Positions 1 to 58,559 of a stretch of 64,000 bases of DNA are shown here, piece by piece. Where the stretch lies: positions 59,145,188 to 59,209,187 of the forward strand of contig CM035806.1 in the NCBI GenBank assembly GCA_020466095.1, written 5' to 3'. The notes beneath the pieces are model-generated. The model had not been told where the DNA came from. It was given only the letters and a program-made list of their open reading frames with translations, and did no database searches. Each line of letters starts with the position of its first letter. The first letter of the stretch is position 1. Made by a program: the position numbers and the translations under genes. Origin of the DNA: Chlorops oryzae. Lineage: Eukaryota > Arthropoda > Insecta > Diptera > Chloropidae.

Positions 1-1273
1 CGTAGGAGATTTTTCGGTGAAATTCTATCTCTTTTATGAACGGTCTATTTTTAAAGCTGTTAACTATTATATCCTCGAATATTATCGGTTTATTCGTAAA
101 GTCGTCCCCCATTTCACTTTCCATACCCAAGTATCTGTCTTCTATTACCGCTTTCTGGTTAAAAAACTTCTCCCTTCCAATTTTTATACTGCAATTGAAA
201 ATGTGATTAGTGCGTTACCCTCTATTGTTAAATTATTTTTGTCGCATGTATGTTCTATTTTTAACTTTCTTGCATTTTTTATTAAAATCGTCCCTTCGTC
301 CACGTATTGGATATGTGTTTTATTATTATATATGAAATTGCAACTCTTTTGTATTACACAGTGTCGGCTTCGTTTTAACTCTTTCAAAACAGAATTCTCT
401 TGATATGTGAAAATTGTTCCGTTTATTGTTGTTATTATTTCGTCATTTGCCATTATTTCAAAAAAATTGTTGTTTGGGACTGCTGTAATCATTCTGACTT
501 CTGTTTTTACCACCGATTTTGGCACCTTGATTACTATTATAACGGAACTTTCGACATAGGATAATATTCCTACTCGTATGAGCTTTAGTTTGAATAAATC
601 AATCTCAAATCTTTTTATTTCTTCTGCTGTTAAAATATTGGGGTGGATTAATCCATGCTTTGCTGCTGCTATGCTATCCTGTATCAGGTTTACTTTTTCT
701 TCAATTACGTGTAGCTTTAGCATTTGGTCATTGAATAGTATGTGCTTCATTAAGTTTGTGCTCCTGCTATCTACTGCATTGATTATTTGCCTTCCTCATA
801 ACACCTAAAGTTTCATTAAAATACGTGTTTATGCTTATTTGTTCGTTGAGACCACCTATGGCATTATGACTATTTTCTGTCGCCACCTTTAGATGCCCCT
901 CAATCTCCTGCCTGTCCTGGTCATCCATGATCCCAAATAACCACTTTGTCGCGGTTCCGACCGCATCAATCAACCCCCTTTTCTGGCGGCTATGTTCGGA
1001 CGGCGTTATTGACACTAGTTTTGACTTAATTTTCTTTATTTCGCTAACCAGTAAATTTTTATTGTATATTTCTACTTGATTTATGTATTTTTCAATTGAC
1101 TCTACCATACTTGCGATTTCCTTTGGGTGTACAATGTGCAGGATTGTGTACGAGTCTTTTACTATGTCTGTTTTCCGCAACTGAATGTCAATGAAGCCCC
1201 TCTGGTCCATAATCGGTGTCGTTATGAGGTTAGTCCCAGTTGTTACTATTAGTGAAATTAAGATTGCCCAAAT
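1..1273 (-). pseudogene. env: A1 env, F-type envelope glycoprotein, broken and cut by the window edge
   Basis: The frame opens right after a TTTTCAG acceptor (1280-1274) and starts with a hydrophobic signal-peptide-like stretch, without its own ATG. A furin-type site R-Q-K-R (around 980) is followed by G-L-I-D-A-V-G and the motif L-F-G-I-M-D-D-Q-D, the cleavage and fusion-peptide region shared by errantivirus Env and baculovirus F proteins. The first open stretch ends at 767; a second runs 750-184, and homologous coding continues to base 1 in a shifted frame with the I-V-N-S-F-K-N-R-P motif just before the expected membrane anchor, which lies outside the window. Env would mediate membrane fusion of particles at the cell surface. 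At least two breaks make it a pseudogene. Confidence is high for family, low for function. Confidence 0.85.
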
Positions 1274-1280
1274 CTGAAAA
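1274..1280 (-). promoter_or_regulatory. 3' splice acceptor for env (A1)
   Basis: The minus strand reads TTTTCAG followed by ATT, with the signal-peptide codons starting exactly at ATT. The same acceptor in the same codon phase precedes env in copy A3 (51838-51844). With the ATG at the splice donor near 16851, splicing would give ATG joined to ATT, in frame. Acceptor and phase are seen; splicing itself is inferred. Confidence 0.7.
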
Positions 1281-1989
1281 TGACGAAGCACAATTTTGCT
1301 GGATTAGCCCCCATGATATAAAGGTATCGTATTGTTGCTTTGGTCGTCAAAAGTTTAGTGTGACCTCGGCAGATAGCTTTCTTTCAAGTCTGGTATGCCG
1401 ACACTTTGCCCATTCTTCTTTACTTTGAGTTATTTTTTCGTTGGGGGTGTCATAGAACTTTTCTTGGTCATGAGTTTGTCACTTCCTCCATAATGCGCAA
1501 TCTGGTAAGTTGTCTCTAACGGCTTGTATAACTCTAAATTAATCTTATTTTGTTCTAGAACGCCCGAATTTTCCCTAAGATCTTTAACGAAGCTCAATTT
1601 CTTCTCCCGACGGTGGATTCTGCCCTTGCTGTTTCAATTCAGCGTACCATGGCAATATTTCTTATGTTTTTCTTTGATTTTTGTTGGCTACCCGGTTCCC
1701 TCTTCTGGATTTTGAATGACTGTCTCATGGTGAGGGAGTTTTTATTTTTTTTTTTTTGTTTTTGTATCTATATATATAATATTATTTTTTTTTCTCTGAT
1801 TTCTTTCAGTTTCTGGTCTGTGTTTATATTTATTTCCTCGTTTTCTATGATGCTATCTTGTCGTGTATCTCTACCTGCTTGGATTATTTTTACCCTCGTT
1901 TTTCTCCACTCATTCGGAAATTTTACGTTATTCGACAATGCCACCCTTATTGTGTCCGGACCTGTATTTTTCGTCTACAGAAAGGACGG

Positions 1990-2708: not shown

Positions 2709-3424
2709 TTACTCCAACCAAGATATCTTTCTATATTTTGCTTTGTTCTCCTGCTTGTTGTAGTGGTAAAGCGCTCTGTATATTAATGTGTATTGGTCTT
2801 TATTACCTACTGCATTAGCCCGTTGTTCACGAATTTCTTCCACTATCTTAGGAATATTTGGTTTCAAACCTGCGTTGAGACTGTCGATGGCTATATCTAA
2901 TGCTATGATTGTGCCGGTTCGTCCAATGCCGGCCATACAATGAATGATCATTGTCGAGTATGTATTATTATTTTGCTTCACTTTTTTCCAGAACTTCAAT
3001 AGCTCTGCGGGGTTGGTAGTCTGGCCAACTTAAAAACTGCCAATGCGATACTACTCGGATTTTATCATTTTTTAAATTTCTCAATTCTATTTTACTATGA
3101 ACGTAATTATTTTCTGTAATTGTTTCTAAAGTACGAATTTGCAAATTTCTACATTTAACTATGTCATTTATGCTTCTTCCCCAATATTGCCAACTTTCTG
3201 CTTTTTTATTTGGTTCTGTGAACATAACTATATCGAAAGAATTTTCGTCCCAAACCATATGCCAAAAGTCATTAAATGTTTGTTTTGTCGGCTTTTGAGT
3301 GGCAATGTATTTTTGTGTACAATGAAATCCCTTCACATAGTTGGCATGAATGTAATCTGATCTCCTTTTGCTTGTTGATTTGAGCTTCACTCGGCTATGA
3401 TCGAAACACTTCACGTTTGAGAAT
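2709..3424 (-). pseudogene. A1 protein tyrosine phosphatase domain
   Basis: Classical PTP motifs appear in order on the minus strand: C-F-D-H-S-R-V-K-L, D-Y-I-H-A-N-Y-V, Y-I-A-T-Q, D-F-W-H-M-V-W, the H-W-Q-F..W-P-D loop carrying the general acid Asp, the signature H-C-M-A-G-I-G-R-T-G with the nucleophile Cys and phosphate-binding Arg, and a Q-Y-x-x-I-Y segment. It would remove phosphate from tyrosines of proteins. It lies directly downstream of integrase; a 1-nt loss in an A-run near 3430 separates the frames, and a second 1-nt shift near 2990 lies between the W-P-D loop and the signature. Catalytic residues are intact, the frame is not. The domain is about 235 residues, slightly short for the family. 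Confidence 0.9.
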
Positions 3425-5066
3425 CTGTTTTTGATTTATTTTTCAAAAAATGACTAATTGTATTTTCATTGTTTACCTTCGACAGCTTTTCGTATTCTTC
3501 GACTATGTCGTTCATATTGGTTGCATCTTCTAAAATATCTGATGTATTTGATTGTTTGGGATCTAATATACATTCTACTGCGCAGATTTCTTGTTTATGA
3601 ATCTTAACTAAGTTTTTATGGTAAGTTTTCTTTTTCCCTTTTATCAGTAACCGCACATTGGTTGGAGAAGGAATCTCGACTACCTCATACGGCCCTCGCC
3701 ACACTGGTGAAAATTTGTGCTCTTTGGTTTGATTTTTTAGCCAAACCTTATCTCCTATCTTGAACTGCCTTTCCTTCGTAGTTTTATCGTAATATTTTTT
3801 TGACTTTGCCTTCGCGTTCTTTTGGTTATTTCTTGATATTTCATAGCTCCTTTGAATCTGATACTTTAGAATTTTACTGTAATCGTCTGGATTGTATAGG
3901 GGTGCAGGTTTTTGTTTTAAATTTAATGGAATTTCAAATTCGAAGCCAAAAAGAATTCTGCAGGGTGTTTGTTTTGTGGATGAATGGACTGTGTTGTTAT
4001 GCACGTGTATAGCGTGGTGCAGCCATTCATCCCAATTGGTGCCATCCTCCTTGACGAAATTTCGGAGGAATTCCGCAAGCGGTCGGTGAGTCCGTTCAAG
4101 AGCGCCGTTGGCTTGTGGGTGGTACGGGGAAGTTTGAGACTTCTTTATTCCGAGAATTTTGCAAACTTCGTTAAACAATTTTGACATGAAATTTGTCCCG
4201 TTGTCCGTTACTAGTGTCCGTGGAATATTAAACTTTGAAATTATCTCGTTAAAATATGCTCTTGCTATAGTTGTTTGCTTCCGCATCAGGGATGGCAATA
4301 CAGAGAAAGTATTTGGAAAAATCATCCAAGAAGGTGAGGATGTACTTATTTCCTCTAGGTGAGACTGGGAGTGGTCCAACTATGTCCATAAAAACTTTGT
4401 CGAATGGCCTATGGGGAGTGTCCGTTATGGTCATTGGCAATCTTTCGGCTCTCGAGCTTTTGTTCTGTTGGCAGAGTTTGCATGCGTTGACATAATTTTT
4501 AATTTGTTTTTGCATGCCCTCCCATTTAAACTGCCTCCTAATTCGGAAATACGTTTTCAAAAATCCCTTATGACCACCGATTGGTGTATCATGAAACGCC
4601 TTTAATACTTTTTCTATTTCTTTTGACTCGGTAAGGAAAACCGCTGTGTCCACATTTACTGAACTTTCTTCGTTTCCATTAAATATTTCTACTATGGCTG
4701 GTTCTGTTGGTTCTTCTTGCTTTAGTGCTCTCGATCGTGTTACGATTGATACTTCACCTTTGAGTGTAGGAAGTCTGCTGAGGGCGTCTGCGTTTAAGTT
4801 ATTCTTCCCTGGTTTATAGCAAATTTCAAAATCATATTCTAGCAGTTTCAGACGAAAACGACCTAGCCTTGTATCCTGCTCTTTCAAATTTGCTATGCCC
4901 TTGAGGGGCTTATGGTCTGTGTATATTTTGAAGTGGTTGCCCAAAAGATATGTTCTGAAATTTTTTACTGCCCAAACTATTGCCAGAAACTCCTTCTCTA
5001 TTGTTGAATAACGTCTTTCTGTCTCGTTAAGCGCTCTACTGGCGTAATAAATGGGAAGATCATGTG
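3411..5066 (-). pseudogene. pol: A1 pol, 3' part: RNase H end and integrase
   Basis: From 5066 the RNase H region (L-P-I-Y-Y-A-S-R, Y-T-D-H-K-P-L, A-D-A-L-S-R-L) is followed by the integrase: zinc-binding His pair (G-G-H-K-G) and C-K-L-C-Q, catalytic D in F-M-D-I-V-G-P-L, D in T-D-N-G-T-N-F and E in G-A-L-E-R-T-H. A C-terminal segment with D-K-V-W-L-K-N-Q and W-R-G-P-Y-E-V-V resembles the usual integrase tail. A 1-nt insertion near 4290 breaks the core domain. The tail leads through a charged linker into PTP, with only a 1-nt shift between them. Confidence 0.9.
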
Positions 5067-5486
5067 TGTTGTTCAAACCAATTAATAAGACGAAGGGCAC
5101 GGCTTTAAGTCACAAACAGGAATGCTCCCCTTTATTTGATTGAGCTTACATTTATATACTTAAAGCTAAACATTTGGAATTGTTTGGAATTGCTTACTGT
5201 ACCCATGAAACAAACACAAATTGTTAACGTAAACATATTGCGGAGCTGTGGCGGTGCCAACGAGTGTAGCATGCGATAAGCCAGTACTTCAAGCCCATGC
5301 CTGTGTGGCTTCAAATTGCAAGACTTGAACGGAAGCATTTCAGACGCTAGGTCAGCGTATTTCACTCAACGAATTGCTTCCCACGAATTTGTTAGTATTA
5401 AGAATTTATACAATGTTGCAGATGATGGCTTTGAGAGTTTATACAAAGTTGCGCATGTTATCGCATAGCAACATCGCCGGCATTCA
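5067..5486 (-). repeat. 3' LTR of element B
   Basis: On the minus strand it begins TGAATGCCGG and ends ACAACA. It matches 12034-12453 with one visible difference. A TATATAAATG box is read on the minus strand near 5155. It is preceded in the element by a purine tract (5487-5505). Confidence 0.93.
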
Positions 5487-5790: not shown

Positions 5791-5802
5791 GGAGCGCTCC
5801 TT

Positions 5803-10583: not shown

Positions 10584-10587
10584 CGCC

Positions 10588-10818: not shown

Positions 10819-10845
10819 CATAAAAGGAATAAAAGTGGCTTCCAA

Positions 10846-11861: not shown

Positions 11862-12020
11862 TCTCAATGTTAAAGCTTCCTTGAATTGTTCCTCTTTTTG
11901 CGTTCTCAATGTTAATAATTTTGTTTAGTCCACTGGATGCATGAGTTGGATGTCGAGCAGCTTAATTAGTCCTTATTGGTCTTGAAGAAATTTCTCGATT
12001 CCGTCATGGTTCGATCTCAA

Positions 12021-12033
12021 CACGATCGCCATG
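12021..12033 (-). promoter_or_regulatory. Primer binding site of element B
   Basis: On the minus strand TGGCGATCGTG begins two bases after the 5' LTR, similar to the tRNA-Arg primer site of mdg1/412 elements. Confidence 0.65.
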
Positions 12034-12453: not shown

Positions 12454-14732
12454 CTGATTCCTCCTGGGAAAGGACTGCTCCTAGCGCCTCATTGCTAGCA
12501 TCGGTTGTGAGAATGAAAGTTTTCTGAAAATCAGGATATTTTAGGATCGGGGGGTTGGTTATAGCTTTTTTAGCTGGTTCATTGCCTCTTGGCATTCGGT
12601 ATCCCATTTAAATTTGACGTCCTTTCTAAGAAATTTTGTTAAGGGCAATGCTATTTTTGCGGCACTAGGTATAAACTTTCGGTAATAGTTAATCAATCCT
12701 AGGCTTGATTGTAGCTGTTTTACCGTCTTGGGTGGCGCAATGTTTTTCACGCATTCTACCTTGGCGGGGTCCGGTAAAACACCTGCCTTCGAGCACTTGT
12801 GGCCCAGATATACTACTTCCCGTTTTAAAAATTGACACTTCTCTGTTTGTAGTTTCAAGTTGTTTTCCCTCAGGACGTCTAAAACCTTTCGTAATCGTGT
12901 TTCATGCGTTTGTAAATTACTGGCGTATATGACGATGTCATCCAGATACACAAAACAATCCACTCCCTGCAAACCTGTCAAAATACTATTCATTATGCGT
13001 TGAAACGTTGCCGGCGCGCCTGTGAGGCCGAACGGCATCCTTGCAAACTCAAAATGTCCTAGCCCTGTGCTAAACGCAGGTTTCTCCCTATCCTTGCCGT
13101 CGACTAACACCTGGTGATAGCCGCTAGCTAAGTCTAAAGTAGTAAAATAGCGACTACAGCCCAACTGATCTAGAATTTCGTCAATTCGAGGTATCGGGAA
13201 CACCTGCTTTATTGTTACGTCATTTACTTTCCTAAAATCTACTACTAATCTCCATTTTTTTTCGCCATTTTTTTCTGCCTTTTTTGGTACCAGAATTATT
13301 GGGGAGTTCCAAGGTGATTTACTTGGCGTAATTATGCCGTCATTAAGCATTTTGTTGACTTGAGAATTTATTTCGGCCTTTTGATGCTCTGGCAGTCTAT
13401 ATTGGTGGGTATTAATTGGTGGTTGTCCTGTTTCTGTGGGGATTTCATGCTCCAATACGGTGGTATAAGAAAGCATGTCTCCACTTAAGTGGAAAATATC
13501 GGAATAATCCTTAAAAATTCTCTGCATTGAACTTATTTCCTCACTGTTTAGAGTGTTGTCTAAGTCAACTGACTCCAGTAAGAGATTAAAACGACTATTT
13601 ACATCACTGTTTTGTTTCATTTGGTTAATATTGAGTGGTTTTAGCTCCTCAAAATTAGTACCGAGTTCCCCTTCTAAAACAATATCAGAATCAACACGTA
13701 TGGCCCTACTACTTGTATTTAAAATTGGCACATACCCCGTTTCATTTTCAACTCTTGTCAGCGTGCTTCCTACGAAAACATCCGGTAATATTTCCTTTTT
13801 GTTTATTATTATTTCCCCTGACATTCCCTTTACACAAATCGCCACTATTTTTGTTTCCCTTGCTTTTATCGTAACTGCTTCCGCAATACAAATCGTCTTT
13901 TCTTCGGAAACAACCAGTGGAATGGCTGTCACTTCACTCCCCATTTCTACTGTGCCTTTACTGCAAATATCCCCTCCAAATGCTCCTACTAACCGGATTG
14001 TTTCACACTGATTTACTTCATTTATATCTTTTAGCGCTTCTAACTTAATCAAGCTTGTGTCCGACCCAGTGTCGACCAACAACGTTACTTGATCGTTTAC
14101 AGCTTGTCCACAGGGAAATACTATAAACGCATCATTGAATATTGAGTTCGGCAATTCATCTCTCTGCCTTTGACGTTGAAGTTGAAAGTTTGATCTTTTA
14201 TTTTCTACATAATTGATTAAGCCATCTAAACAAGCTGCAGATTTTTTAGCCAACACAACCCAAAACATCACAAAGGACCAAAATAATTTCCAGAATGGAA
14301 ATCCGTCTTTCTTTTTGTTTCTGCTCTTGTTCCAAACGGGGGTCTCTACGTTAGGCTCCTCCTTCACTTCATTTCTTATCGCGGACTGACATATGGTTAC
14401 TAATCCCTTTGTAAAATTTTTTGTGTGCTCTCTTTCTCTTGGATTTTTATCCTTGTTCATTAAAACGTTTTCCTTTCTATTTTTCAATTCGTTTTCTTTC
14501 TTACTTTCTATATTCCTTACTTTCTTATCTATGTTCTGACTATCTATGTCATCGATAAAAATCTTATTAATGTCTAGTTCCTCAAAACGAACTGTCTTTT
14601 TTTTTGTATTTTTTAAATTAACTAATTTCTCTTTTTCTTTATTCTCTTCTTTGACCGGAACTAGACTTGGCCTTTTAACTGTCGACTGGGTTTGGGCATT
14701 CCGGCCTATTGGCCTTGACCGGGCCGCATGGA
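12454..14732 (-). pseudogene. pol: A1 pol, 5' part: protease, RT and start of RNase H
   Basis: The frame is open from the -1 slip site near 14733 down through a charged N-terminal region with a hydrophobic patch (F-W-K-L-F-W-S-F-V), the protease motif L-V-D-T-G-S-D (near 14075) and the RT: W-R-L-V-V-D-F-R-K, P-F-G-L-T-G-A-P, catalytic Y-L-D-D-I-V-I, and L-G-H-K-C. The downstream G-L-I-N-Y-Y-R-K-F-I motif is also present. A shift in an A-run near 12580 moves the rest ([15 protein letters not shown]) to another frame, just before element B interrupts the gene. It would process polyproteins and copy RNA to DNA. Confidence 0.9.
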
Positions 14733-20201: not shown

Positions 20202-20963
20202 TTAAAATTCTGTATTGCTTTCCCGTTCCGTATATCGTTTCAGTATGGATTTGATGCTCTCTTTTCTACTTAATCTTACGTTATCCTTTTTCATGTCCTG
20301 ATGAACTTCTACTTTCACCCCTTTTCTTCTAGATATTATGAATATTCCCAAAAACCCACCGATAATTATTAAAAACAATGTTCCACTGATGCCATATGAT
20401 ATATTGCGATGCCATATTTGCTCTTTTATGTATGGTCTATTTTTAAAACTGTTAACTACGATATCCTCAAGGATTGTTGAACTATTTGGCATTAATTTAT
20501 TGTCTGGGTAGAAAAATCGGTCTTCAACTATTGATTTAGAGTTGAAAAATTCCTCTGCTCCAATTTTTAGTCTACGATCTGCGAAATTTATAAGGGCGTT
20601 ATAGTCTAGCGTTATATTTCTTTAATCGCAATTTTGGATGATTCTGAAGTGTTGTGCGTTTTTTACTATAATGGTGTCTTCTTCTATGTATTGTATAAGG
20701 GTTTTGTTATTGAAAATAAAATTGCAATTATTCTGAATTGTACAATGACTACTTCTTTTTAATTCTTTTAAAATTGCATTCTCCGTGTAGGTAAATATTG
20801 TACCGTTAATGGAAGTTATTAGCTCGTCCTCCTGCATTATCTGGAAAAATTCTCTGTTCGGTATGGCTGTTACTAAATTTACTTCTGTCTTTATGAGTGT
20901 TCTTGGAACCTTTATTACTATGGTTATTGAATTTTGAGCGTGAGCTAGAATTCCCACCCTCAC
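20202..20963 (-). pseudogene. env: A2 env, C-terminal part with membrane anchor
   Basis: Two frames. The first (20963-20622) matches the post-fusion-peptide ectodomain of A1 env (F-T-Y-T-E-N-A and L-K-E-L-K-R-S). The second (20492-20202) has the V-N-S-F-K-N-R-P segment, a 20-residue hydrophobic anchor (T-L-F-L-I-I-I-G-G-F) and a basic cytoplasmic tail of about 45 residues. The signal peptide, furin site and fusion peptide are missing: a deletion joins the ectodomain straight to the end of PTP at about 20970, also removing the antisense-ORF region. Not functional for fusion. Confidence 0.85.
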
Positions 20964-20976
20964 GAATTTTAACTTA

Positions 20977-21720
20977 TTATTCAGGTCCCATTGCCTGCCT
21001 GTGTAAAATTAGAGTTTGGTATATGAAGAGGTATTGGTTTAAGTCGCTTACCGCGTTCGCGCGTTGGTTGCGTATATTTTTTACTATATCTGGAATACTT
21101 AATTTACTATATTCATTCCATTCCGAGAGTGCAATATCCAAAGCAATGAATGCTCCTGTGCGGTTTATCCCTGCGCTACAGTGGACTATCAATTTTTAGC
21201 AGATATGTTCTTTCTCCAACATCTTTTGATGTTGTTTAATTTTATTCCAGAAAACCAAAAAGGACTTCGGGTTGGGTGTGCCCTTATCTGGCCATGTTCT
21301 AAACTGCCAATGAATAATACAACGGTTTGATTTGGATTTTAAGCTTTTAATTTCTAATATGCTCCTAGTACTATCCCTGTCGGTCAACACCGTTTTGGTC
21401 TTAATTTCGAAATCTTTGCATTTAAAAATATCTTTATTTTTCTTTCCCCAATATTGATAGCATTTTATTTTGCCTTCTTCTATTATGTTTCTTAGCACCA
21501 CTATGTTTAAAAAATTTTGCTCCCAAACCATTTCCCAGAAATTGTTTACTGTGTTATGCAGGGGACCTTGCGTCGCTATGTATTCGTTTTTTTTCTGGCC
21601 TCCACTCACATAATTAGCGTGTATGTAATCTGAGCTGTTTTCGCTTGGAGTTTTGAGCTTTACTCGACTATGGTCAAAACATGGAACTTCAGCATATCGG
21701 TTTTTGGATTCATTATTTTC
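20977..21720 (-). pseudogene. A2 protein tyrosine phosphatase domain with altered signature
   Basis: Motifs in order: K-N-R-Y phosphotyrosine loop (about 21700), C-F-D-H-S-R-V-K-L, D-Y-I-H-A-N-Y-V, Y-I-A-T-Q-G-P, F-W-E-M-V-W, Y-Q-Y-W-G, H-W-Q-F-R-T-W-P-D, then after a stop at 21196 and a frame change the signature H-C-S-A-G-I-N-R-T-G, and Q-Y-L-F-I-Y. The second glycine of the usual H-C-S-A-G-x-G-R is Asn here; Cys and Arg remain. The N-terminal 666-base frame (21861-21196) also includes the charged linker from integrase. It is broken by the stop, and its activity cannot be judged. Confidence 0.88.
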
Positions 21721-21861
21721 GAAATTTTCTGTTTTATTCTTTGAAATTTGCCTTTTGATTTTTTTGTGCTCGATTGTTAACCCTTCTGTGTCCAAATTTC
21801 CTAGTGAATTTTGTAAATATTTTGCGTGAACTGCTTTATTTGAATTTGAAATGTTTTTCAC

Positions 21862-23635
21862 TGTGTAATTTTAGCAAGTTTTTGTGCAGAGTTTTCTCTT
21901 TACCTTTGATACGCAGACGGACATTAGCTGGGGGAGACGTGCAAACTACTTCGTATGGCCCTCCCAAATTGGTGAAAATTTATGTTTTTTAGTTTGATTT
22001 TTTACCCAAACTTTATCTCCTGCTGAGAACTCCCTTTGTTTTGAATTTTTATCGTAATACGCTATTGACTTTTCTTTCGCGGCTTTTTGGTTAGTTATAA
22101 CTATTTCATAGCTGCCTTGTATTTGGTATTTCAAAATTTTGCTGTAATCGTCTTGGTTGTATAAAGGCGCGGGTTTATGTTTTAGTTTTACGGGAATTTC
22201 GAAGTCCAAACCGAAAAGCGTTTTACATGGTGTTTGTTTCGTTGTTGAGTGAGCCGTGTTATTATGTACGTGTATGGCGTGGTAAAGCCATTCATCCCAA
22301 TTTGTGCCATCCTCGTTGACAAAATTTCGAAGAAATTCTGCAAGAGGTCGATGACTCCTTTCGAGAGCACCGTTGGCTTGTGGATGGTACTGAGAAGTTT
22401 GAGATTTCTGTATTCCAAGAATTTTACAAACTTCTCTAAACAAATTTGACATGAAATTTGTCCCGTTGTCTGTTACTAGTGTCTTTGATATATTGAATTT
22501 TGAAATAATTTCATTAAAAAATGCTCTCGCTACTGTTGATGCCTGCGCATCTGGAATTGCGACGCAGAGGAAATACTTTGAAAAATCATCCAAAAAAGTT
22601 AAAATGTACTTATTTGCTCCTGGTAAGTCTGGAAGTGGCCCCACTATATCCATAAAAACCTTATCGAATGGTCTCTGGGGCGTGTCTGTTATTGTCATTG
22701 GGATTTTATCTATTCGAGAGCTTTTTTTTTTTTGGCAAAGTTTGCATCCGCTAACGTAATTTTTAATTTTTTGTTGCATGCCTTCCCACTTGTATTGCTT
22801 CCTAAGTCGAAAGTATGTCTTAAAAACCCCTTTATGGCCTCCTATTGGAGTGTCATGAAAAATTTTTATCACCTTTTGGATCTCTGCTGGATCCGTAAGC
22901 ACCACTGCTGTATCTTCATTTACTAATGGGTTCTCATATTCCATGCTTAGATCCACTGAAGGATCTTCTACTTGTTCCTCGTTTTGTTTTGTTTTGGATC
23001 GGGTTACGGCTGCAATTTTACTCTCTGAGACTGGAAGTCTACTTAACGCATCAGCATTGAGATTGTTCTTTCCAGGCTTGTAGTGGATTTCAAAATCGTA
23101 TTCTAACAATTTTAGACGGAAACGGCCTAATCTAGTGTCCTGATCCTTTAGATTAGCTATTCCCTTTAGTGGTTTATGATCTGTGTAAATTTTAAAGTGT
23201 TTTCCTAACAAATACGATCTAAAATTTTTAACTGCCCACACTATTGCTAAAAATTCCCTTTCAATCGTTGAGTATCTCCTTTCCGTCGCACTCAGTGCCC
23301 TACTAGCATAATAAATTGGGAGATCTTTCCCTATTTCTCCTTGTGAAAGGACGGCCCCTAGCGCCTCATTACTTGCGTCTGTTGTAAGGTTAAATGGCTT
23401 TTCAAAGTCTGGATATTGGAGGATTGGTGGGCTAGTGACCGCATTTTTTTAGCTGATCCATAGCTTCCTGACACTGTGCACTCCAATTGAATTTCTCCTC
23501 TTTCCTTAGCAATTTAGTCAAAGGCAATGAAAGTTTTGCTGCTTCGGGTATAAATTTCCTGTAATAATTTATCAAACCTAGAAATGACTGTAATTGCTTA
23601 ATATTTTTGGTGGCATATTTTAGAGCTAAAATCAT
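21862..23635 (-). pseudogene. pol: A2 pol: RT end, RNase H and integrase
   Basis: A frame from 23241 to 21946 carries Y-T-D-H-K-P-L, A-D-A-L-S-R-L, G-G-H-K-G, C-K-L-C-Q-K, F-M-D-I-V-G-P-L, T-D-N-G-T-N-F and G-A-L-E-R-S-H, that is RNase H plus a complete integrase core. Upstream RT sequence (23635-23432, G-L-I-N-Y-Y-R-K-F-I) is in another frame. A shift near 21950 breaks the link to PTP. The copy is truncated at about 23635; gag and most of RT are absent. Confidence 0.88.
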
Positions 23636-40600: not shown

Positions 40601-40672
40601 AAGGAACATTTCAAGGGGGAGTTATGCTTTATAGTGCGAGGTTCAAAAATAAGGCGCACCCTAATGCTCCAT
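37642..40672 (-). mobile_element. Mutator-like DNA transposon with about 0.48-kb inverted repeats
   Basis: The element proper is 37651-40663. Ends read TAGGGTGCG(T/C)CTTA and the inverted repeats extend about 470-490 bp (37651 to about 38140; about 40195 to 40663). A perfect 9-bp target duplication ATGCTCCAT lies at 37642-37650 and 40664-40672. Long inverted repeats with 9-bp duplications fit the Mutator superfamily; the transposase family itself I cannot name with certainty. A second copy begins at 62791. Confidence 0.85.
38318..39807 (-). pseudogene. Transposase-like gene of the Mutator-like element
   Basis: Three minus-strand frames. First (39807-39289): W-K-K-A-R-I-P-T-R and I-E-E-D-R-N-F-L-L-S-Q-R, ending at a plausible short intron (GT near 39298, AG near 39236). 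Second (39243-38497): V-H-W-D-G-K-L-L, L-G-C-D-T-T-A-S-N and C-R-H-H-I-F-E-I, a D...CxHH arrangement as in RNase H-fold transposases. Third (38500-38318): A-E-R-A-V-K-L-M-E-D-Y-N and Y-P-D-A-K-K-S. These belong to an abundant uncharacterised arthropod protein family. Relative to that family the part between the second and third blocks appears deleted, and a frameshift lies at about 38525. Confidence 0.65.
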
Positions 40673-41029: not shown

Positions 41030-41231
41030 TAAGGACATAAAGTTTTCTTCAAAACGTATGGTAGAATCAAAAGACAACTCAAGTGGGAGGGAATCCAAAT
41101 ACAGATGAAAAATTACGCTGACGCATGCCAGCTTTGTCAGAAGAACAAAAGCTGCCGTTTAAGGAAAATGCTCATGGCGTTAACAGATACACCTTTTAGA
41201 CCATTTGATAAGGTGTTCATGGATATAGGAT
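41030..41231 (+). pseudogene. Family-A integrase fragment
   Basis: Encodes W-E-G-I-Q, C-Q-L-C-Q-K-N-K and T-D-T-P-F-R-P-F-D-K-V-F-M-D, the zinc-finger and first catalytic Asp region of family-A integrase, then breaks off into LINE sequence. Its second half is part of the tandem duplication and recurs at 44225-44301. Confidence 0.75.
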
Positions 41232-43759: not shown

Positions 43760-44224
43760 TGTTGTGAGTCGCGATCTCGCTTAGACTCACAAACATATTT
43801 TTCCTTCTCCTTCTACACGCTCGCAAACTAAATCAAAACAACAAAGTGCGAATGAAGCATAAACAAAAGGAAAGAAAGCTAAAAGACCCAAAAGCAAAAG
43901 GCAGTGACCTGCCTTTATGAATTTCTACTTCAAGGTGATTCCATGCTACTCAAAAGCACTATCCAGCGTAAATTGCTGACAAATGCAAACATGCAGTTCG
44001 GCCGCTTGCAACAACAACAACACCGGCACAGTATATGCCCGATTGACAAACATGAGCGCTGGCGCAGCGAATGAACAATTGCAATCCGATCGCTGGCAAT
44101 AACAACAACAACACACGTCAAGAGTTTTTATGTAAAAGCAACAACAACTACAAAAGAAGAACTAAGAACATCGGAATAGCTGTATGTAGTACCAATATGG
44201 CATGTTGGTACAATTGCGGGTGAA
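43760..44224 (+). repeat. Partial family-A LTR in duplication unit 1
   Basis: First 465 bases of the LTR that is complete at 46829-47682, cut at the duplication junction. Confidence 0.8.
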
Positions 44225-44301
44225 CCGTTTAAGGAAAATGCTCATGGCGTTAACAGATACACCTTTTAGACCATTTGATAAGGTGTTCATGGATATAGGA
44301 T

Positions 44302-46828
44302 ATAGGATTTTTTGTAGTGGCTATTAAATTTTTCGTAAAGACAGAGTACATAAGAATGGAGGTGGTGTTTTAATGCCAGAATTTATTTGGATTAAAGTTC
44401 ACTTACGGAAAAACAACTTGTTTCTTTGCTGCTCTTATATTCCACCTAATAGTGATATTTCCTTGTCATCCAGATTCTATATCAACTTTGTGTAATATGA
44501 TGGATGACACTGATAATGTTATTGTTGCTGGCGACTTTAATCTTCCTCATGTTTACTGGGACCTTTTGGAAGATACAAATTTTCTACTGCCACGTACATA
44601 CAACGAAAATTATTTCCTTGATAAATTGAATTAATCGTCGCTTATGCAGATAAATTATGTGAAAAACTGTAATGATCGACTTTTGGATCTCATATATGTT
44701 GATGAAAGCGTAAGTGTGAAATTGGATCGAACTTCTCCATTTTCTGTGCCCGAGGACGTTCACCATCCTACTGTGGAGTTACTTTTCGAGATTTGGACCG
44801 ATAGAAGTATCCGATCACACTGTTTTGCAAAAACTGATTACGTAAAACTTAAATCCACTATAGCCGAAATCAACTGGCTGTCTATCTTACAAAATAAAAA
44901 CTTCGAATCAGCGCTAAACGAGATTTATAATATCTTATGGAAATTTATTGACTTATGTGTGCCTAAAATAAAGGTGAAATCAGTCAGGAGCCCGGTGTGG
45001 AGTGCAGCTCAACTGAAATACTTAAGAAACCTGAAAAGTCGTCGCTTCAAAAAATATAGGAGGTCCGGATCACTAATTGATTATGCCAGATATTCTGAAA
45101 TTCGTTATCGTTTCTTCAAATGTAATGATAGTTGCTATAAAAACTATCTTAATCGAGTCAAATGCAATATTCGATCCGACCCAAAGAAATTTTATAATTT
45201 TGTTAATGACAGGTGAAAGAGCAATGGTTAACCAATTCATATGAATTATAATGGGAATTTTTCGACTTCCGGTAATGATGTGTTGAGCATGTTTGCTGAT
45301 TTCTTTCAATCTCTGCATAAATACTCTGCTGTATACAACTATCCTGAGCATCCACATTCATATTTTTTCATCAATAGTCCAGTAATTAACAGTTCGATTA
45401 TACTTGGTTATTTAAAGAATGTTAAATCATCTCATTCTGCAGGACCGGATAATATTCCGAGCTGTATAATCAAATCTTGCGCTGATGTATTAGTGTTCCT
45501 CTTGCAGAACTATTTAATTTGTCGTTGAGCACCGGTATTTTTCCTGACATATGAAAAAATTCCCACATCATTCCTCTTCACAAAGGGGGATTAAAATCTT
45601 TAATAAATAATTATCGAGGAATAGCTAAGCTTAATGCTATTCCTAAGGTTTTTGAGCATATCATTACTGATCAGATTACCTCAAGTTTAATTGGAAACAT
45701 ATCTCCCGATCAACATGGCTTCGTAAAAGGTAGATCTACGGTTACAAATTTACTTGAATTTACTGCGACGATAACTGATGGATTTATTGCTAAGGCTCAG
45801 ACTGACGTGATATTCACGGACTTCAATAAGGCATTTGACAGCATTAATCATTACCTGCTACTCGAGAAGTTGAATATTGCAGGATTTCCTTCTGTGCTTC
45901 TTAAATGGCTTAAATCTTATTTGTTAAAAAGGAAACAACGTGTTCTTTTAAATAATGTAGCATCGAAACCTATTTTGGTACATTCTGGAGTTCCACAATT
46001 TGTGTTACATTCTGGAGTCAAAATTTGCTTAACAGTTATGGATATTACATATCAGTCATTACTCCAGGATGACTTGAACCGCCTCTCTATCTGGTGTGAC
46101 AAAAACCAACTTCAAAGTTTAGCCAAGTGTAAGCATATGACATTCTCTTGGAATTCTGCATATGAAACGGCATACTTCTTGTGTAACACTCCACTAGCTT
46201 CTGTTGACACAATTCGAGATCTAGGATCTAGGATCATATTGAACACATCGTGAATAAAGCGAAATCGTCTCTGGGTTTCATGAAGCGCTGGTCTAAAGAA
46301 TTTAAAGATCCGTATATAACTAAGCTGCTGTTTACTTCTCTGGTTCCCCCAATGCTGGAATATGCTTCTTCTGTTTGGAGTCCCCGTTACAGTACACATT
46401 CCGACAAAATTGAATCGGTCCAAAAGCAATTTTAGCTCTTTGCTTTGAGTCATTTGGCCTGGGACACATCAAGAAATCTTTCACCATATGAATGGCGTTT
46501 AAAGCTTATTCGTCTTCCAAGTTTGCATAGCAGACGGCCTGTAGCAAATTTTATGTTTATGCATAAGCTACTGAACGGTTCGGTGAAATCTCAACGATTG
46601 CTGGCTCGAATTGACTTAAATGTTCCCTTGAGAATGTTACGACGCTATGTTCCGATTCGTTTAAAATGCTGTTCAACAAATTATATTGAACACGAACCTT
46701 CGAGATCAATTTGTATCGATTACAATAATTTGTATGACTTTATTTGTCCATCATTTCATAGTTATTTCATAAAAAACCAACTAATTTTGTATTTAAATTC
46801 TTTGTAACTTTTTTTTAATTCGTGCATG
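44302..46828 (+). pseudogene. Non-LTR retrotransposon (LINE), copy 2
   Basis: Near-identical to 41232-43759 through the tandem duplication, with the same defects plus one extra 1-base deletion near 45553. Confidence 0.8.
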
Positions 46829-47682
46829 TGTTGTGAGTCGCGATCTCGCTTAGACTCACAAACATATTTTTCCTTCTCCTTCTACACGCTCGCAAACTAA
46901 ATCAAAACAACAAAGTGCGAATGAAGCATAAACAAAAGGAAAGAAAGCTAAAAGACCCAAAAGCAAAAGGCAGTGACCTGCCTTTATGAATTTCTACTTC
47001 AAGGTGATTCCATGCTACTCAAAAGCACTATCCAGCGTAAATTGCTGACAAATGCAAACATGCAGTTCGGCCGCTTGCAACAACAACAACACCGGCACAG
47101 TATATGCCCGATTGACAAACATGAGCGCTGGCGCAGCGAATGAACAATTGCAATCCGATCGCTGGCAATAACAACAACAACACACGTCAAGAGTTTTTAT
47201 GTAAAAGCAACAACAACTACAAAAGAAGAACTAAGAACATCGGAATAGCTGTATGTAGTACCAATATGGCATGTTGGTACAATTGCGGGTGAAGGTCGCG
47301 GTCAAGCTTATGCAATATGTTCGGGAAGAATCGACGACGATCGCGGACCATGGGAATATTCAATATTGCAAGATCAGCAATATTGATCTATATAAACGGA
47401 GCTTCGACGGACTGGAGGGGCACTTCTGCACACGTACTCATCCAAGGGCCACGACGTAGAAGTAAATAGTCAAGCAATAGGGATATTTGTATTTGGAAGT
47501 ATATGATTCATTTTGTTAAATAAAGGATTAAAACCTATTTGTTGGTGTCTTTTATTTGATAAAGGAAATACAGGGACTATTATACGCTGGACATTGTCTG
47601 AGCGCTTGGTACCCTACGTTGTAATTTAGTGACGTTTGTGCGCTCGACACAGTTTGAGCGCTGTGCACACTATACTACAACA
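46829..47682 (+). repeat. 5' LTR of A3
   Basis: 854 bp, TGTTGTGAGTC to CTACAACA, with TATATAAAC near 47388 and AATAAAGG near 47520. Followed by TTTA and GGCGCAGCC, the family-A primer site with its first T changed to C (47687-47696). Confidence 0.85.
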
Positions 47683-47696
47683 TTTACGGCGCAGCC

Positions 47697-49559
47697 ACCC
47701 AAAAACATCGAAAGAATTGCAGTCCTTTCTCGGTTTGATCAACTATTATAGAAAGTTTATACCCGAGGCAGCTCAAATACCCTTGCCATTAACAAAATTA
47801 TAAAAAAAAAAGAGAAATTTATTTGGAATAAGAATTGCCAAGACGCAAAGGATAAATTGAAAAATGCAGTTACAAGCCCCCCCATATTACAATATCCTGA
47901 TTTCGAAAAGTTATTTATTCTTACAACAGACGCAAGCAACGAAACATTAGGTGCGGTATTGTCGCAAGGTGAGCCAGGACAGGATCTGCCAATATACTAT
48001 GCTAGTAGGGCACTTAGTGCAACCGAGAGACGATATTCCACGATAGAAAAGGAGTTTTTGGCAATCGTGTGGGCAGTTAAAAATTTCAGAACATACCTTT
48101 TAGGCAAACATTTCAAAATTTATACCGACCATAAACCACTGAAAGGAATAACAAATTTAAAAGAGCAAGACACGAGATTAGGACGTTTTAGATTAAAACT
48201 TTTAGAATATGACTTCGAAATTCTTTATAAACCTGGGAAGAACAACCTTAACGCGGATGCATTAAGCAGGCTTCCGAGTTCAGACAGACCAATAGGAGTA
48301 GTTACCCGATCAATGTCACAAGACACTCACGAACAATTAGACGAATTACAAAACGTAATTGCAAATGACAATCTAAACGAAGATATAGCAGTGGTGCTTA
48401 CTGATCCAATAGAAATACAAGACGTGATGAAAATTTTCCATGACACCCCAATAGGAGGCCATAAAGGTTTTGAAATCAGAAAACAATATAAATGGGAGGG
48501 CATGCAACAACAAATTAGAAACTACATTAAAGCATGCGAGCTTTCCCAGAAAAACAAAAGCTCTCGAGTAGACAAAATGCCTATGTCAATAACAGACACA
48601 CCCCATAGACCTTTCGATAAAGTTCTTATGGACATAGTCGGTCCACTTCCCATTTCGTCCAGGGAAAATAAATACATTCTTACATTTTTAGATGACTTTT
48701 CAAAATATTTTGTATGTACAGCTATCCCAGATGCAGAAGCATCAACAGTAGCTAGAGCTTTTTTCAATGAAATCATTTCAAAATTTAATATCCCAAAAAC
48801 GCTAATAACAGACAATGGCACCAATTTTACATCAAAACTCTTCAATGAAGTTTGTAAAATTCTTGGAATAAAGAAATCATAAACTTCACCCTACCACCCC
48901 CAAGCCAATAGTGCTCTCGAAAGGAGTCACCGACCTCTTGCGGAATTTCTCCGAAATTTTGTCAATGAGGATGGCACGAATTGGGATAAATGGCTGCATC
49001 ATGCGATGCATGTACACAACAACACAGTACATACATCCACAAAACAAACACCATGCAGAACACTTTTCGGCTTCGATTTCGAAATTCCCATTAAATTAAA
49101 ACATAAACCGAGTCCACTGTATAATTCAGACGATTACAGCAAAATATTAAAATTCCAAATCCAAAGAAGCCACGAAATAGTTAGAAATAATCAAAAGAAA
49201 GAAAAAGAGAATTCAAAAAAATACTATGATAAGAAAACGAAGATGAGGAATTTTGCAGTGGGCGAGAAAGTTTGGATTAAAAATCAGAACAGAATAAATA
49301 AATTTTCGGCAATTTGGGAAGGTCCTTATGAAGTCGTGTCCATTCCATCGACAAGTAATGTGCGATTGCGAATAAAAGGAAAAGAAAAGACGTTTCATAA
49401 GGATTTACTCAAACCTTTTGAAGATAAAATTGGCACAATCGAAAAACTAAAAGTGCAAGAATTAAACACTTTTTTAACAACAAAAAGTTCAGAGCAGATA
49501 TCAGACGAATTCAATAAATTGAACCAAATTGTAGAAAATGGCAGAATAAACACATTTGC
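47697..49559 (+). pseudogene. pol: A3 pol: RT end, RNase H and integrase
   Basis: RT tail (G-L-I-N-Y-Y-R-K-F-I) in a broken stretch, then from 47857 an open frame with T-T-D-A-S-N, Y-T-D-H-K-P-L, A-D-A-L-S-R-L, G-G-H-K-G, M-D-I-V-G-P-L, T-D-N-G-T-N-F, a TAA at about 48880, and in the same frame A-L-E-R-S-H, V-W-I-K-N-Q and W-E-G-P-Y-E-V-V. In the zinc finger the first Cys pair reads C-E-L-S-Q, so one Cys is lost. The frame runs on through a charged linker of about 80 residues into PTP. Confidence 0.88.
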
Positions 49560-50301
49560 GAAAAATAAATCAAAAAATCGTTATTCAAATTTACCCTGTT
49601 TTGAACACAGTAGAGTAAACCTAAGTTCATCCGAACAATCAGTTTATATCCATGCGAATTTTGTTGATGGATTTGACAGAAAAAGGTAATACATTGCCAC
49701 TCAGGGCCCATTAATAAATACCATTAATGACTTTTGGCAAATGGTGTGGGGTCAAAATTGTTATAACATAGTTATGCTATCGGAGATACAGGAACATGGA
49801 ATATAAAAATGCTTTCAATATTGGGGAAAAAATAGAGGCACGTGCGTTAAGTCCAGCAGTTTCATTATAAAGACGTTGAAAATATATAAAACCGACTCTG
49901 GTATACAGAGCGAATTATTATTAAAAAATTTGGAAACCAGAGAAGTCAGAAAAATTCTCCACTGGCAGTTTTTACACTGGCCGGACAATGGTACTCCGGA
50001 GCCAGCACGTTTACTAAAATTCTGGTTGGAAATACAAAATCACCAAAATTCTATAACAACAGAACATAGTTTGTCCAAAATAATAATACACTGCAGCGCC
50101 GGTCTTGGCCGAACATGTACTTTGATAGCAATAGATATTGCCTTAAGGACCATAAATTCAGGATCCAAAATTAGATTACCCGACACAGTAAGAATACTTC
50201 GCGAACAGCGCGTGGGCATGATGACGTGCATGAAACAATATAAATTTGTGTATGACGTTTTGAACTGCTACGTCAAACAACATTTGAAGCACAAAATTTA
50301 A
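49560..50301 (+). pseudogene. A3 protein tyrosine phosphatase, same frame as integrase
   Basis: K-N-R-Y loop (49573), C-F-E-H-S-R-V, Y-I-H-A-N-F-V, Y-I-A-T-Q-G-P, D-F-W-Q-M-V-W, C-F-Q-Y-W-G, H-W-Q-F-L-H-W-P-D, signature H-C-S-A-G-L-G-R-T (about 50091), and Q-Y-K-F-V-Y. Nucleophile Cys, Arg and general acid Asp are all present. Two TAA codons (about 49687 and 49804) interrupt it without shifting the frame. It ends at 50301. This copy shows most clearly that PTP was made as the C-terminal domain of Pol. Confidence 0.92.
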
Positions 50302-51234: not shown

Positions 51235-51732
51235 TTAACCAACATACAAGCTTTTTGTATTTCTGGGAATATCCCATTCAGAAGACAACTCCCGACTAGT
51301 CACAAAATATGGCCGAACTGCGGGAGCAAACAAGTGTAACCGGTCGAGAAGGTCCGATAGCCGGTAGGGGTCTTTAGTCGGCTCACCCTCTTTGTTAAGT
51401 ACTGCATTCGGCTCCAGTTTTTTCCGCAATAGGCGTTGCGAAATCACCAGCAAATTCTCCTCCCACGGTGTGGCAAAGTTATACTCCTCACATCACTCTG
51501 CCAAATTAGAAATACGCCGCTGGTGTCCCCAGTCGCGTATCTTAATCCCCTGGGCCTCCTCGTAGCGCAACCGCAAAACGATCTCCAGCACACTTTTCAA
51601 AATTATGACCATCCTAGGCCATACCTCGTCTATCTTGCAAAATACAGGGAGGGTCCGTTTTAAGCAGGCGTCCACCTGATAATTCTCCTCCAAATGATAA
51701 TCCGCTCCAAACTTTTCTAAATAAAACTCCAT
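51235..51732 (-). pseudogene. Antisense ORF between PTP and env (copy A3), unknown protein
   Basis: On the strand opposite to the element: from an ATG at 51732, about 165 codons to TAA at 51235, with one internal TGA (about 51492). Y-H-L is at codons 12-14 and R-D-W-G-H-Q about 60 residues after it, both shared with A1 (1990-2478). Segments such as V-L-E-I-V-L-R-L-R-Y-E-E align without gaps with M-E-M-C-L-R-E-D-F-E in A1. A TATATAAA lies 36 bases upstream of the ATG and AATAAA downstream of the stop, the signs of a separate transcription unit. I do not recognise the protein; it has no obvious signal peptide or zinc motif. Confidence 0.6.
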
Positions 51733-51767
51733 GTCGAATAAGTGTAATAAAACGGATTTCAGGACAA

Positions 51768-51775
51768 TTTATATA
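51768..51775 (-). promoter_or_regulatory. TATA box for the antisense ORF (A3)
   Basis: TATATAAA on the minus strand, 36 bases before the antisense ATG, lying between the divergent antisense ORF and the env splice acceptor. Confidence 0.45.
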
Positions 51776-51837: not shown

Positions 51838-51844
51838 TTTTCAG
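51838..51844 (+). promoter_or_regulatory. 3' splice acceptor for env (A3)
   Basis: TTTTCAG followed by ATT, same sequence and codon phase as in A1 (1280-1274). Confidence 0.7.
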
Positions 51845-52584
51845 ATTTTAATTACGATTCTGGGAATGGCTGGGGCAACCCAAGGAGGGTTAGTGGTAAC
51901 CCCAATCACAGATCAGCGCGGATTTATAGAGGTTCACATGCAGAAGACAGAAATAGTAAAAGAATCTTTCACAATTCTACATGTTATCCATCCGAAAGAA
52001 ATTTTAAAAATTATAAATTCAATTGAATCACTCGTTATGTCTACAGAGGTACAAAATAAGGGATTTTTGGTAAGCGAGATAACAACAGTAAAATCAAAAC
52101 TGAAGTCAATAATGCCACCATTGAGAAAAAGAAGAGGACTTATTAACGCAATAGGAAGAGCGGGAAATTGGCTGTTCGGGATAATGGACGATCAAGACCG
52201 CCAAGAGATTGAAGAACACCTAAAGAAAAATTTTTAACAGCATAACAAAGGGTAATGAGGATATTTTAAAACGTATGATATTTAATGAACAATTATATAA
52301 ATTGAAAAATATAGAAGAAAAATTAAATTTGATCCAGGACAGCATAGCTGCAGCCAAACACGGCCTCATGCACCCCAGCACCCTTAACCGAAGAAGTAGA
52401 GAGATTCAATTTAAACTTTTTAAAACTTAAATGGGTTAGAGTAGGAATAATGATATGTGTAGATGAAACATTGGTGATAGTGGTAAAAATTCCTACACGT
52501 CTAGAAGAAATAGAGGTTAATCTTATTACCCCGGTACCAAGTTAGGAATTTTACGAAATTATGGCAGAAGACGAATTAGTAAAA
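51845..52584 (+). pseudogene. env: A3 env, F-type envelope glycoprotein, truncated
   Basis: The frame opens at the acceptor with a hydrophobic leader, then D-Q-R-G-F, a furin-type R-K-R-R followed by G-L-I-N-A-I-G and L-F-G-I-M-D-D-Q-D. It stops at 52237; later sequence (N-L-I-Q-D-S-I-A-A-A-K-H-G-L) is in another frame with further breaks. The membrane anchor is missing because the sequence joins a primer site at about 52584. Defective. Confidence 0.85.
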
Positions 52585-55583: not shown

Positions 55584-57455
55584 ATGGAAAAAGAAATAGA
55601 TTTACTTAAGGATAGATTGAAGGTATTCGAGGGCGATTCAGACACCATTTTACGTGAAGCAAGGGAGTTAGTTCACCAAGCAAATTTAAGCAAGGCAATT
55701 TTAAGCTTAATTAAGGACCAAACCGTACTAGGGCAATTTTCGAAAATTGGCGAAGCAGCCTTTTTGGTCAACAAAGTTAAAGATACAGTAAGTGCATCGG
55801 AACAATCCACGAGCGAAAAAATTGAAGAATTAGAACTGAACATAAAAGCCCTGAAAAACAGTTGCAAATCGTTTAAAAACCAAATAGAAAATCAAAATAG
55901 TTTAATAGAAGAAGCAGAAAAAGAAAATCAGATTTTAAGAGATACTTTAAGTAAAGAAGTCGGTCCTACGGTTGCGGACACCATTCAACACAGCAAGAAA
56001 AAACTTAAAGAAAGTGAAGAAGAAACTGCATTTTTAAAACAGGAATTAAGAAAATTAAAAAACACATTGAAAACAGTCTGTGTCCCGTCTCCGGTTTCAA
56101 CTCCAAATCCTGCACGGAAAACTAGACTGGCAAACCAAAACGTTCAAATTGCCTTTACACCCACTGCACAGACTTCAAACCAATTTGTTTTTCCACCCCC
56201 TCCAAAGACAACAACAACTACTCAACATATTATTCCAACGATCCAAACAAATAACACAACAGTCGATAATATTGAAAATTTGAGCGCTGCTCAGCCAACA
56301 ATAAACATGACCACTAATATGCAAGTAGATGAATTGATCCAAAAGGTAAACAGACTTGTACCATACTTTTCAGAGTAAAACAATCCAGAGTTGAGCTTAG
56401 AAGTAGATAAATTTATCACTGGTATCGAGTTACTTAAAAGCGTTGTGGGCAACTTTAACATAATAGACGTTATAAAATGCATAAAAAACAGATTAAGAGG
56501 CATGGCCTACATGAAAGTAAGCCAGAGATCAATTAGTAACATAGATGAGCTTTGTGATTTGATAAAGAGAGAATTTTTTAAGAGACGAACCCTTGAAACT
56601 ATTAGGTCAGAAATAGCAAGCTCAGAGCAAAATAATGACGAGAGAGCATCAGCATTCGGTGGTAGATTAGAATTTTTATTAAATGAAGCAGAAGTTGTAA
56701 TTAAAAAATCATGGAATGATGTAGAGGCACTGTCGGCGCTTAGCGAATATAGAAAGCTGGCAACCAGCAAATTCATTTTCGGTGTGAGGGATCCTTATAT
56801 GCAAAATAGACTTGAAGGTTCAAAAGATAAATCACTTGAAAACCTAATTAATTTAGCAGAGGAGTCAGAAGACCTCCATGCAGAAAACTATAATTACTGC
56901 AACCAACTTTTATATAAAACACCCCCAGTAGGAACACAAACGATTAAGTGTTCTTTTTGCAATTTGGAAGGGCATACTTGGGATATCTGTGCCCAAAGAA
57001 AAAATACTCCATTTTGCACCAGTTCTGCCCAATATGGTCACCAGTTTAGCGCAAAATGCGATAAAATAATAAGGCTATGACTCCAAATACAGAAATATGT
57101 TCATATTGTGGAAAGAAGGGTCATTCAGAGGGAAAATGTTTTAGTAAAATGAAAACCTTGTTTTGCAAAATTTGTCAGTTGAATGGTCATTCGAGCAACC
57201 CCTTTTGCAGACAAAGGCAGGAAAAAAATAATATGCAGAACACTCAACAACAAAATAACGATTCACTTGGGCGAGTCCAGAATCAACACAGAGGGAGAAA
57301 TTTTAGTAGAATTAGAGCAGAAAATTTTAACGGGGAGGAAATGAAAGAAACCAACCTTCGAATAACGCAAATATTCAATGCTTCAATTGCTCACAGTTTG
57401 GACATATATCCAAATTTTGTAGAGAGCAAAAAACGATAAATAATTGTCAGGGAAA
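55584..57455 (+). pseudogene. gag: A4 Gag
   Basis: ATG at 55584. N-terminal coiled-coil region (L-I-K-D-Q-T-V-L-G-Q-F matches A1), capsid-like part and knuckles C-S-F-C...C, a damaged second knuckle (C-T-S-S), C-S-Y-C...C, C-K-I-C...C and a last C-F-N-C...C near 57380. A stop near 56376, a shift near 57075 and another near 57300 break it. The gag stop follows the slip heptamer immediately. Confidence 0.88.
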
Positions 57456-57488
57456 CTAGTAGCGGCCCGGTCAAGGCCAATAGACCGG
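57450..57488 (+). promoter_or_regulatory. Gag-Pol -1 frameshift signal (A4)
   Basis: GGGAAAC at 57450-57456, ten-base spacer, then CCGGTC (57467-57472) and GACCGG (57483-57488), a perfect 6-bp stem where A1 has a G-U pair. The -1 frame is open into pol for about 160 bases. Confidence 0.85.
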
Positions 57489-58168: not shown

Positions 58169-58180
58169 ACTAAAGTGCCA

Positions 58181-58559
58181 AAATAGAAAAAACTAATTTT
58201 CACCAATATGGCAAGGAGCGTATGAAATAGTTTCAAATGTAAAATTAAAAATAATGGGAAAAGACAGAACATTTCATAAGAATTTGGTAAAATTAAATCG
58301 CAAAATAAATTGTATAAAAACCGAAGAAACTCAGAGGCTATTCGATGAAAAGAAGAAGAAAAAATAAAAACAAAGTAAAGTTAAATTACCTACCGACAGT
58401 GCAGTAATATGTCAAAACGATAGATCAAAGAACAGATATGCGGATTTACCTTGTTTCGAACACACACGAGTCAAGCTGAAAGCAACCGAAAGGGGGAATC
58501 AGATTACATACACGCCAACTTCAGAGACGGACATAATGCAAAAATAATAAGACGGGTGA
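58181..58559 (+). pseudogene. A4 integrase tail and N-terminal PTP fragment
   Basis: The integrase tail (F-S-P-I-W-Q-G-A-Y-E, F-H-K-N-L-V-K-L) leads through a linker with a stop near 58365 to K-N-R-Y-A-D-L-P-C-F-E-H-T-R-V-K-L and, after a 1-nt shift near 58490, D-Y-I-H-A-N-F. The rest is lost in the gap. A fourth diverged copy with PTP following integrase. Confidence 0.85.

Follow-up and report, generated by a model that had tools for sequence, protein, structure and literature searches.

A classical protein tyrosine phosphatase (PTP) is fused behind integrase in an env-bearing Ty3/gypsy family, and our analysis confirmed that this fusion is real. The explanation that accounts best for it, to which we assign a probability of about 0.8, is that the PTP was captured behind integrase, was inherited with Pol, and has been kept as a catalytically competent enzyme.

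The 64-kb window, by which we mean the whole stretch of DNA that was analyzed, is a nest of transposons holding at least four decayed copies (A1 to A4) of one such family (Table 1). In the stretch from RNase H to integrase, A1, A2, and A3 were 72.7 to 75.7% identical to each other at the DNA level; A4, judged by its gag, is a more distant copy. The order in A1, read on the minus strand, was gag, reverse transcriptase (RT), RNase H, integrase, PTP, and env, with a gap between RT and RNase H that holds another Ty3 element. The Pol domains followed the order RT, RNase H, and integrase with an H2C2 zinc domain, as in Ty3/gypsy elements (Pfam, pieces of A1, A2, and A3). An aspartyl protease was recognized in the A1 frame by eye only, with no Pfam match. 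Downstream of pol, an env related to the baculovirus F protein was identified by Pfam in A3 and A1 and by similarity in A2; the second A1 env frame had no match in Pfam, and no env was seen in A4, whose sequence runs into an assembly gap. No complete copy of the PTP-bearing element was present in the window, where every copy is broken, and no long terminal repeat (LTR) pair found there could be assigned to this family; the 3′ end of A1 lies at the window edge.

Table 1. Coordinates of the PTP-bearing family in the window
Feature	Position	Strand	Evidence
A1 gag frame, 701 aa	14706..16811	-	CCHC-like knuckles by eye; no Pfam match
A1 RT frame	12559..14487	-	Pfam RVT_1, 8.1e-35
A1 RNase H and integrase	3411..5100	-	Pfam and similarity
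A1 PTP, two frames, shift near 3020	2733..3432	-	PF00102, 2.8e-34 (first piece)
A1 env, two frames	184..1291	-	Baculo_F, 1.7e-9 (first frame)
A2 RT end, RNase H, integrase	21946..23614	-	Pfam and similarity
A2 linker and PTP, one stop within the domain	20986..21861	-	PF00102, 3.8e-48
A2 env piece	20580..20975	-	60% identity to second A1 env frame, 132 aa
A3 RNase H, integrase zinc-binding domain and core, to internal stop	47857..48882	+	RT_RNaseH, 8.3e-37; rve, 3.2e-17; Integrase_H2C2, 6.4e-10
A3 junction: integrase tail, C-terminal domain, linker, PTP N terminus, one open frame	49006..49689	+	PF00102, 1.2e-8; P0001 aligned from 49231
A3 PTP middle piece, bounded by two stops	49690..49806	+	
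A3 PTP C-terminal piece: HWQF, WPD, HCSAGLGRT	49807..50301	+	PF00102, 5.2e-29
A3 env pieces, Baculo_F-like	51839..52581	+	Pfam Baculo_F, 1.8e-6
A4 gag pieces	55584..57480	+	50% aa identity to A1 gag
A4 integrase C-terminal domain, linker (one stop), PTP N terminus, then assembly gap	58170..58534	+	tblastn

The nest contains other features as well. The element nested in A1 (5065-12454) is younger and belongs to a different Ty3 family; it has two 423-nt LTRs that are 99.8% identical and a 1,156-aa Pol frame in which tblastn gave no PTP match among the matches listed. A 3.07-kb unit with LINE-like frames lies in tandem duplication at 41155-47293 (99.9% identical), which is either recent or an assembly artifact; an extra integrase fragment of the PTP-bearing family (41033-41227; 63% aa identity to A2 over 65 aa) ends where this duplicated stretch starts. 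A 1.2-kb repeat occurs at 37660-38874 and 62792-64000 (98.7% identical); part of it is present a third time, inverted, at 40194-40624. A large near-palindrome with arms 95 to 98% complementary around a 40-nt center lies between the A3 env and the A4 gag (53140-55218). Open frames antisense to the element occupy the interval between PTP and env: in A1 a frame of 232 codons (1783-2478, plus strand), whose length was reached by 0 of 500 Markov shuffles, and in A3 frames of 91 and 85 codons separated by one stop (51235-51768, minus strand). The two sets are weakly similar to each other (5 of 2,000 shuffles) and have no Pfam match. This interval was considered as a conserved stretch and rejected: A1 and A3 had no DNA match there, just the weak antisense similarity. 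In the A3 spacer, a different frame holds the longest open stretch, whose length of 109 codons is not unusual (122 of 500 shuffles). No Rfam or tRNA matches were obtained in the window.

The PTP lies directly behind the integrase C-terminal domain in A1, A2, and A3 (Pfam Y_phosphatase, PF00102) and in A4 (a tblastn fragment). The original prediction had described a single A3 frame running from RNase H through integrase and a charged linker into a PTP, broken by three stops and by no frameshift, and open reading frames and Pfam agreed on this layout (47857-50301; stops at 48880-48882, 49687-49689, and 49804-49806). In the model of P0001, a related protein described below, the last part of the charged linker (residues 98 to 109) forms one of the helices of the PTP fold. 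PTP sequence had also been claimed at the same place in A1, A2, and A4; the position was borne out, but A1 and A2 are frameshifted and A4 is a mere fragment. In A1 there are frameshifts near 3020 and at the integrase/PTP boundary, the latter within the sequence KNKSK/NR, which is uninterrupted in A3. In A2 the integrase and the PTP share one frame, and the C-terminal domain between them is shifted. In A4 a single frame contains both the integrase C-terminal domain and the start of the PTP, separated by a stop, and the PTP fragment (58413-58534), detected by tblastn only, is followed by a run of N (E value = 2.8e-7 with the A2 PTP; E value = 3e-12 with P0001, integrase C-terminal domain included). 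Within the material searched, no copy extended past integrase without a PTP, and the two other Ty3 families in the window had no PTP match among the tblastn matches listed (queries, element PTP and P0001).

An intact fusion was sought and was found once, outside the window. P0001 (362 aa, from a 1,312-nt ENA contig) consists of an integrase C-terminal domain, a linker, and a complete PTP in one intact frame, so the integrase-PTP fusion is not an artifact of decay. Its identity to the A2 query is 39% over 220 aa; for A3, compared across the C-terminal domain, the linker, and the PTP, it is 42.8%. AlphaFold predicted five strands at residues 8 to 58 with low confidence, the helix already mentioned, and a PTP fold mostly with pLDDT values above 90 (208 of 362 residues at 90 or higher). 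No second independent fusion occurred among 141 retrieved proteins, where a scan with P0001 residues 1 to 122 matched P0001 alone, and a protein search with residues 1 to 142 likewise returned only P0001. These protein searches covered candidates of 199 to 633 aa, and full-length Pol therefore lay outside them; a profile search listed 120 of 3,667 matches, mostly receptor-type PTPs, and the databases searched may be poor in insect genomes. Among viral contigs, queried with P0001, the A3 junction, the bracovirus protein P0098, and two alignments, no relative was confirmed by tblastn; prokaryote genome contigs yielded no relative, and there were no matches in phages (A1 integrase query) or plasmids (P0001 query). 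A chlamydial PTP from the prokaryote contigs (27%) was judged unrelated.

We compared the element PTPs with host PTPs, and PTPN9/Meg2 emerged as the likeliest host source, with support that was not uniform across copies. For P0001 the best single-domain solved chain was PTPN9 (188 bits, with the next type, RPTP alpha, at 165), and for A1 it was again PTPN9 (87 against 80); two-domain receptor chains outscored PTPN9 for both by summing two domains. For A2 the best single-domain chain was PTP1B and for the A3 C-terminal piece PTPN14, with PTPN9 absent in both cases from the best 60 listed. Among the 141 retrieved proteins, a Glossina PTPN9 was the best match for A1, the best for P0001 after P0001 itself, and second to P0001 for A2; it was not the best for A3. 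The motif HWQF before the WPD loop occurred in 2 of the 141 (P0001 and the Glossina PTPN9) and also in A1, A2, and A3. A Foldseek search with P0001 returned PTP-MEG2 as its first four matches, followed closely by PTP1B. The linker was tried as proof of a PTPN9 origin and rejected: 28 of 5,000 shuffles reached its score, and higher scores were reached by several receptor-PTP linkers when the linker stretch compared was slightly longer.

In the N-half tree under a mixture model (40 rows, 143 columns), A1, A2, and P0001 formed one clade (support, 99/88), which under plain LG+G4 received an SH-aLRT value of 55.8 and a bootstrap of 88; in this tree the copies were not scattered among different host genes. 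In the C-half tree (36 rows) the four element pieces were not one clade in the best trees, and a single clade was not rejected (p-AU = 0.54). Grouping the element rows with PTPN9 gave p-AU values of 0.53 (N half) and 0.31, and of 0.45 for P0001 alone, with one PTPN9 row in the trees; none of these groupings was rejected, and no tree contained a supported clade of PTPN9 with the element PTPs. A long-branch warning applies to the full-domain tree (33 rows). The N-half tree was built without C pieces, the C-half tree without N pieces and five rows lacking the C half, and the full-domain tree without all window pieces and the same five rows; A4, CvBV domain 1, and the N-terminal and middle pieces of A3 were left out of every tree.

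Next, we looked at substitution patterns between the copies, a check proposed with the original prediction. In the PTP frame, pairs among A1, A2, and A3 showed pN values of 0.33 to 0.35, pS values of 0.66 to 0.78, and pN/pS ratios of 0.45 to 0.49 (Fisher tests, P values from 1e-11 to 8e-20, which are approximate as the tests take sites as independent). The bias was synonymous in the true frame, and the ratio was near 1 in shifted frames, where controls gave values of 1.0 to 1.27 and 29 to 35 stops. With DNA-only alignment, the true PTP frame gave 0.39 to 0.48 in all five comparisons; shifted frames gave 0.97 to 1.53, one of them departing from 1 (P value = 0.02) in the opposite direction. These counts include neutral change after insertion, which masks part of the constraint. 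Integrase had a pS of 0.65 to 0.76 and a pN of 0.13 to 0.15, and the PTP protein has thus changed about 2.3 to 2.7 times faster than integrase at a like synonymous depth; because synonymous sites are near saturation, an equal age of the two is only a rough estimate. The results are most simply explained by one PTP capture that was co-inherited with integrase under purifying selection. The claim that an ancestral element took a host PTP into Pol and retained it is supported by the intact P0001 frame, the A1-A2-P0001 clade, the purifying selection, and the similar synonymous depth.

The retained residues bear on what has been selected. The KNRY loop (KNRF in A1), the WPD loop, and HCX5R were found in A1, A2, A3, and P0001, and all four kept the catalytic Cys, the Arg, and the WPD Asp. 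The Q-loop Gln was replaced in all four, by G in A1, S in A2, T in A3, and S in P0001; some other PTP rows also lack it. By established PTP chemistry, the phosphocysteine step of the element PTPs should work, and the loss of the Gln suggests slower release and hence slow turnover, or partial trapping of substrates.

We propose that an env-bearing Ty3/gypsy lineage acquired a classical PTP catalytic domain, whose source was most likely a PTPN9/Meg2-type enzyme, and that this domain came to lie in frame after the integrase C-terminal domain. The capture probably took place when reverse transcription switched templates to a spliced host mRNA. The substitution pattern and the retained residues would mean that the PTP was inherited with Pol and that its catalytic competence was kept by purifying selection while the lineage diversified. 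The PTP would be made as the last part of Pol, would be packaged with RT and integrase, and could be freed by the element protease, and it may then dephosphorylate phosphotyrosine proteins of the host, either in the producing cell or in the cell that receives the particle. We put such a catalytic role, exerted on host phosphotyrosine by a Pol-borne PTP, at even odds. To dephosphorylate STAT3, Meg2 does not require its lipid-binding domain, and its reported targets include EGFR and ErbB2; a role in promoting vesicle fusion is also reported (PMC3446372). STAT or receptor-kinase signaling and vesicle-fusion factors are the first candidates because they are the ones reported for Meg2, and a particle-borne domain of this type could damp STAT or receptor-kinase signaling or aid secretion. 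The PTP might instead be retained because it has a structural or binding role in the particle, in which case selection would be preserving something other than catalysis. The replaced Q-loop Gln would fit such a role, as would the case of the BmNPV PTP, a captured host phosphatase that serves as a structural protein of the virion and whose activity is not needed for that (PMC3320614). A purely structural part would have no need of the Cys, the Arg, and the WPD Asp, which are kept in four of four sequences, and we regard this reading as unlikely.

Wasp bracoviruses raise the question of a shared viral origin, in which a retroelement PTP passed to wasp proviral segments or a polydnavirus PTP passed to the element, as opposed to separate host captures; such an origin would be compatible with our preferred explanation. 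The PTP of Cotesia vestalis bracovirus also had PTPN9 as its best single-domain chain (179 bits, with the next type at 146), and the motif PC[FW][DE]HSRV was confined, among the 141 retrieved proteins, to P0001 and this bracovirus PTP. The best viral structure match of P0001 was a PTP of Microplitis mediator bracovirus. Bracovirus PTPs are described as intronless, and at least one is thought to have been moved by reverse transcription (PMC3573978). Element and bracovirus PTPs were united in the C-half tree (93/96), but the grouping had values of 62/21 in the N half and 71/52 in the full-domain tree with its long-branch warning, and it involves one named bracovirus protein; P0002 grouped with the bracovirus row in the mixture-model N-half tree. 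Moreover, the bracovirus rows have Glu at the position of the WPD Asp. An IHAN motif was rejected as a further tie, as it occurred in 8 of the 141 proteins, including nematode and other PTPs. A link between the element and wasp bracovirus PTPs is thus possible and suggestive only, and we consider one viral origin for both rather improbable. We hold as similarly doubtful the wider idea that a retrovirus-like element evolved a Pol-delivered PTP as a permanent enzymatic component of its life cycle and that its lineage is the source or the sister of the PTP families that parasitoid-wasp viruses deliver into caterpillars.

Two further alternatives concern whether the fusion belongs to a working element. 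P0001, known from its one short contig alone, could have been domesticated by its host, or its contig could be chimeric, and it would then not show the element's intact state; we find this very unlikely, as its domain order and junction are the same as those of A1 to A4 and the selection signal among A1, A2, and A3 is independent of it. That host PTP sequence landed in dead elements as junk, in separate events, would suit the broken state of every window copy and is hardly credible given the junction common to the copies, the intact P0001 frame, the A1-A2-P0001 clade, and the purifying selection on the PTP.

We found no retroelement with a PTP among the matches listed from the open full-text literature, and we know of none that keeps a host signaling enzyme as part of Pol. 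It is the retention of such an enzyme as a part of Pol that gives the finding its interest. The family shares gag, RT, RNase H, integrase, and an env of the baculovirus F family, in the same order in A1, with env-bearing Ty3/gypsy elements (errantivirus-like Metaviridae) and differs from them in the PTP fused behind the integrase C-terminal domain. The PTP genes of bracoviruses and ichnoviruses are likewise classical PTPs in an insect viral context, and those of bracoviruses supplied the nearest viral structures and some shared motifs; unlike the element PTP, they are separate genes on proviral segments without integrase, with Glu for the WPD Asp in the one examined. The baculovirus PTP is of the dual-specificity type. 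In BmNPV, too, an insect virus has captured a host phosphatase, but there it is a separate gene encoding a structural protein of the envelope (PMC3320614). By several measures, P0001 and A1 are closer to PTPN9/Meg2 than to any other host type; the element, though, has the phosphatase domain only, without the CRAL-TRIO domain and without the Q-loop Gln. Acutely transforming retroviruses also carry a captured host signaling gene in a retroviral genome; in them the captured gene usually replaces viral genes, and the viruses are short-lived and defective, whereas here the PTP appears to have been added to Pol and kept over near-saturating synonymous divergence.
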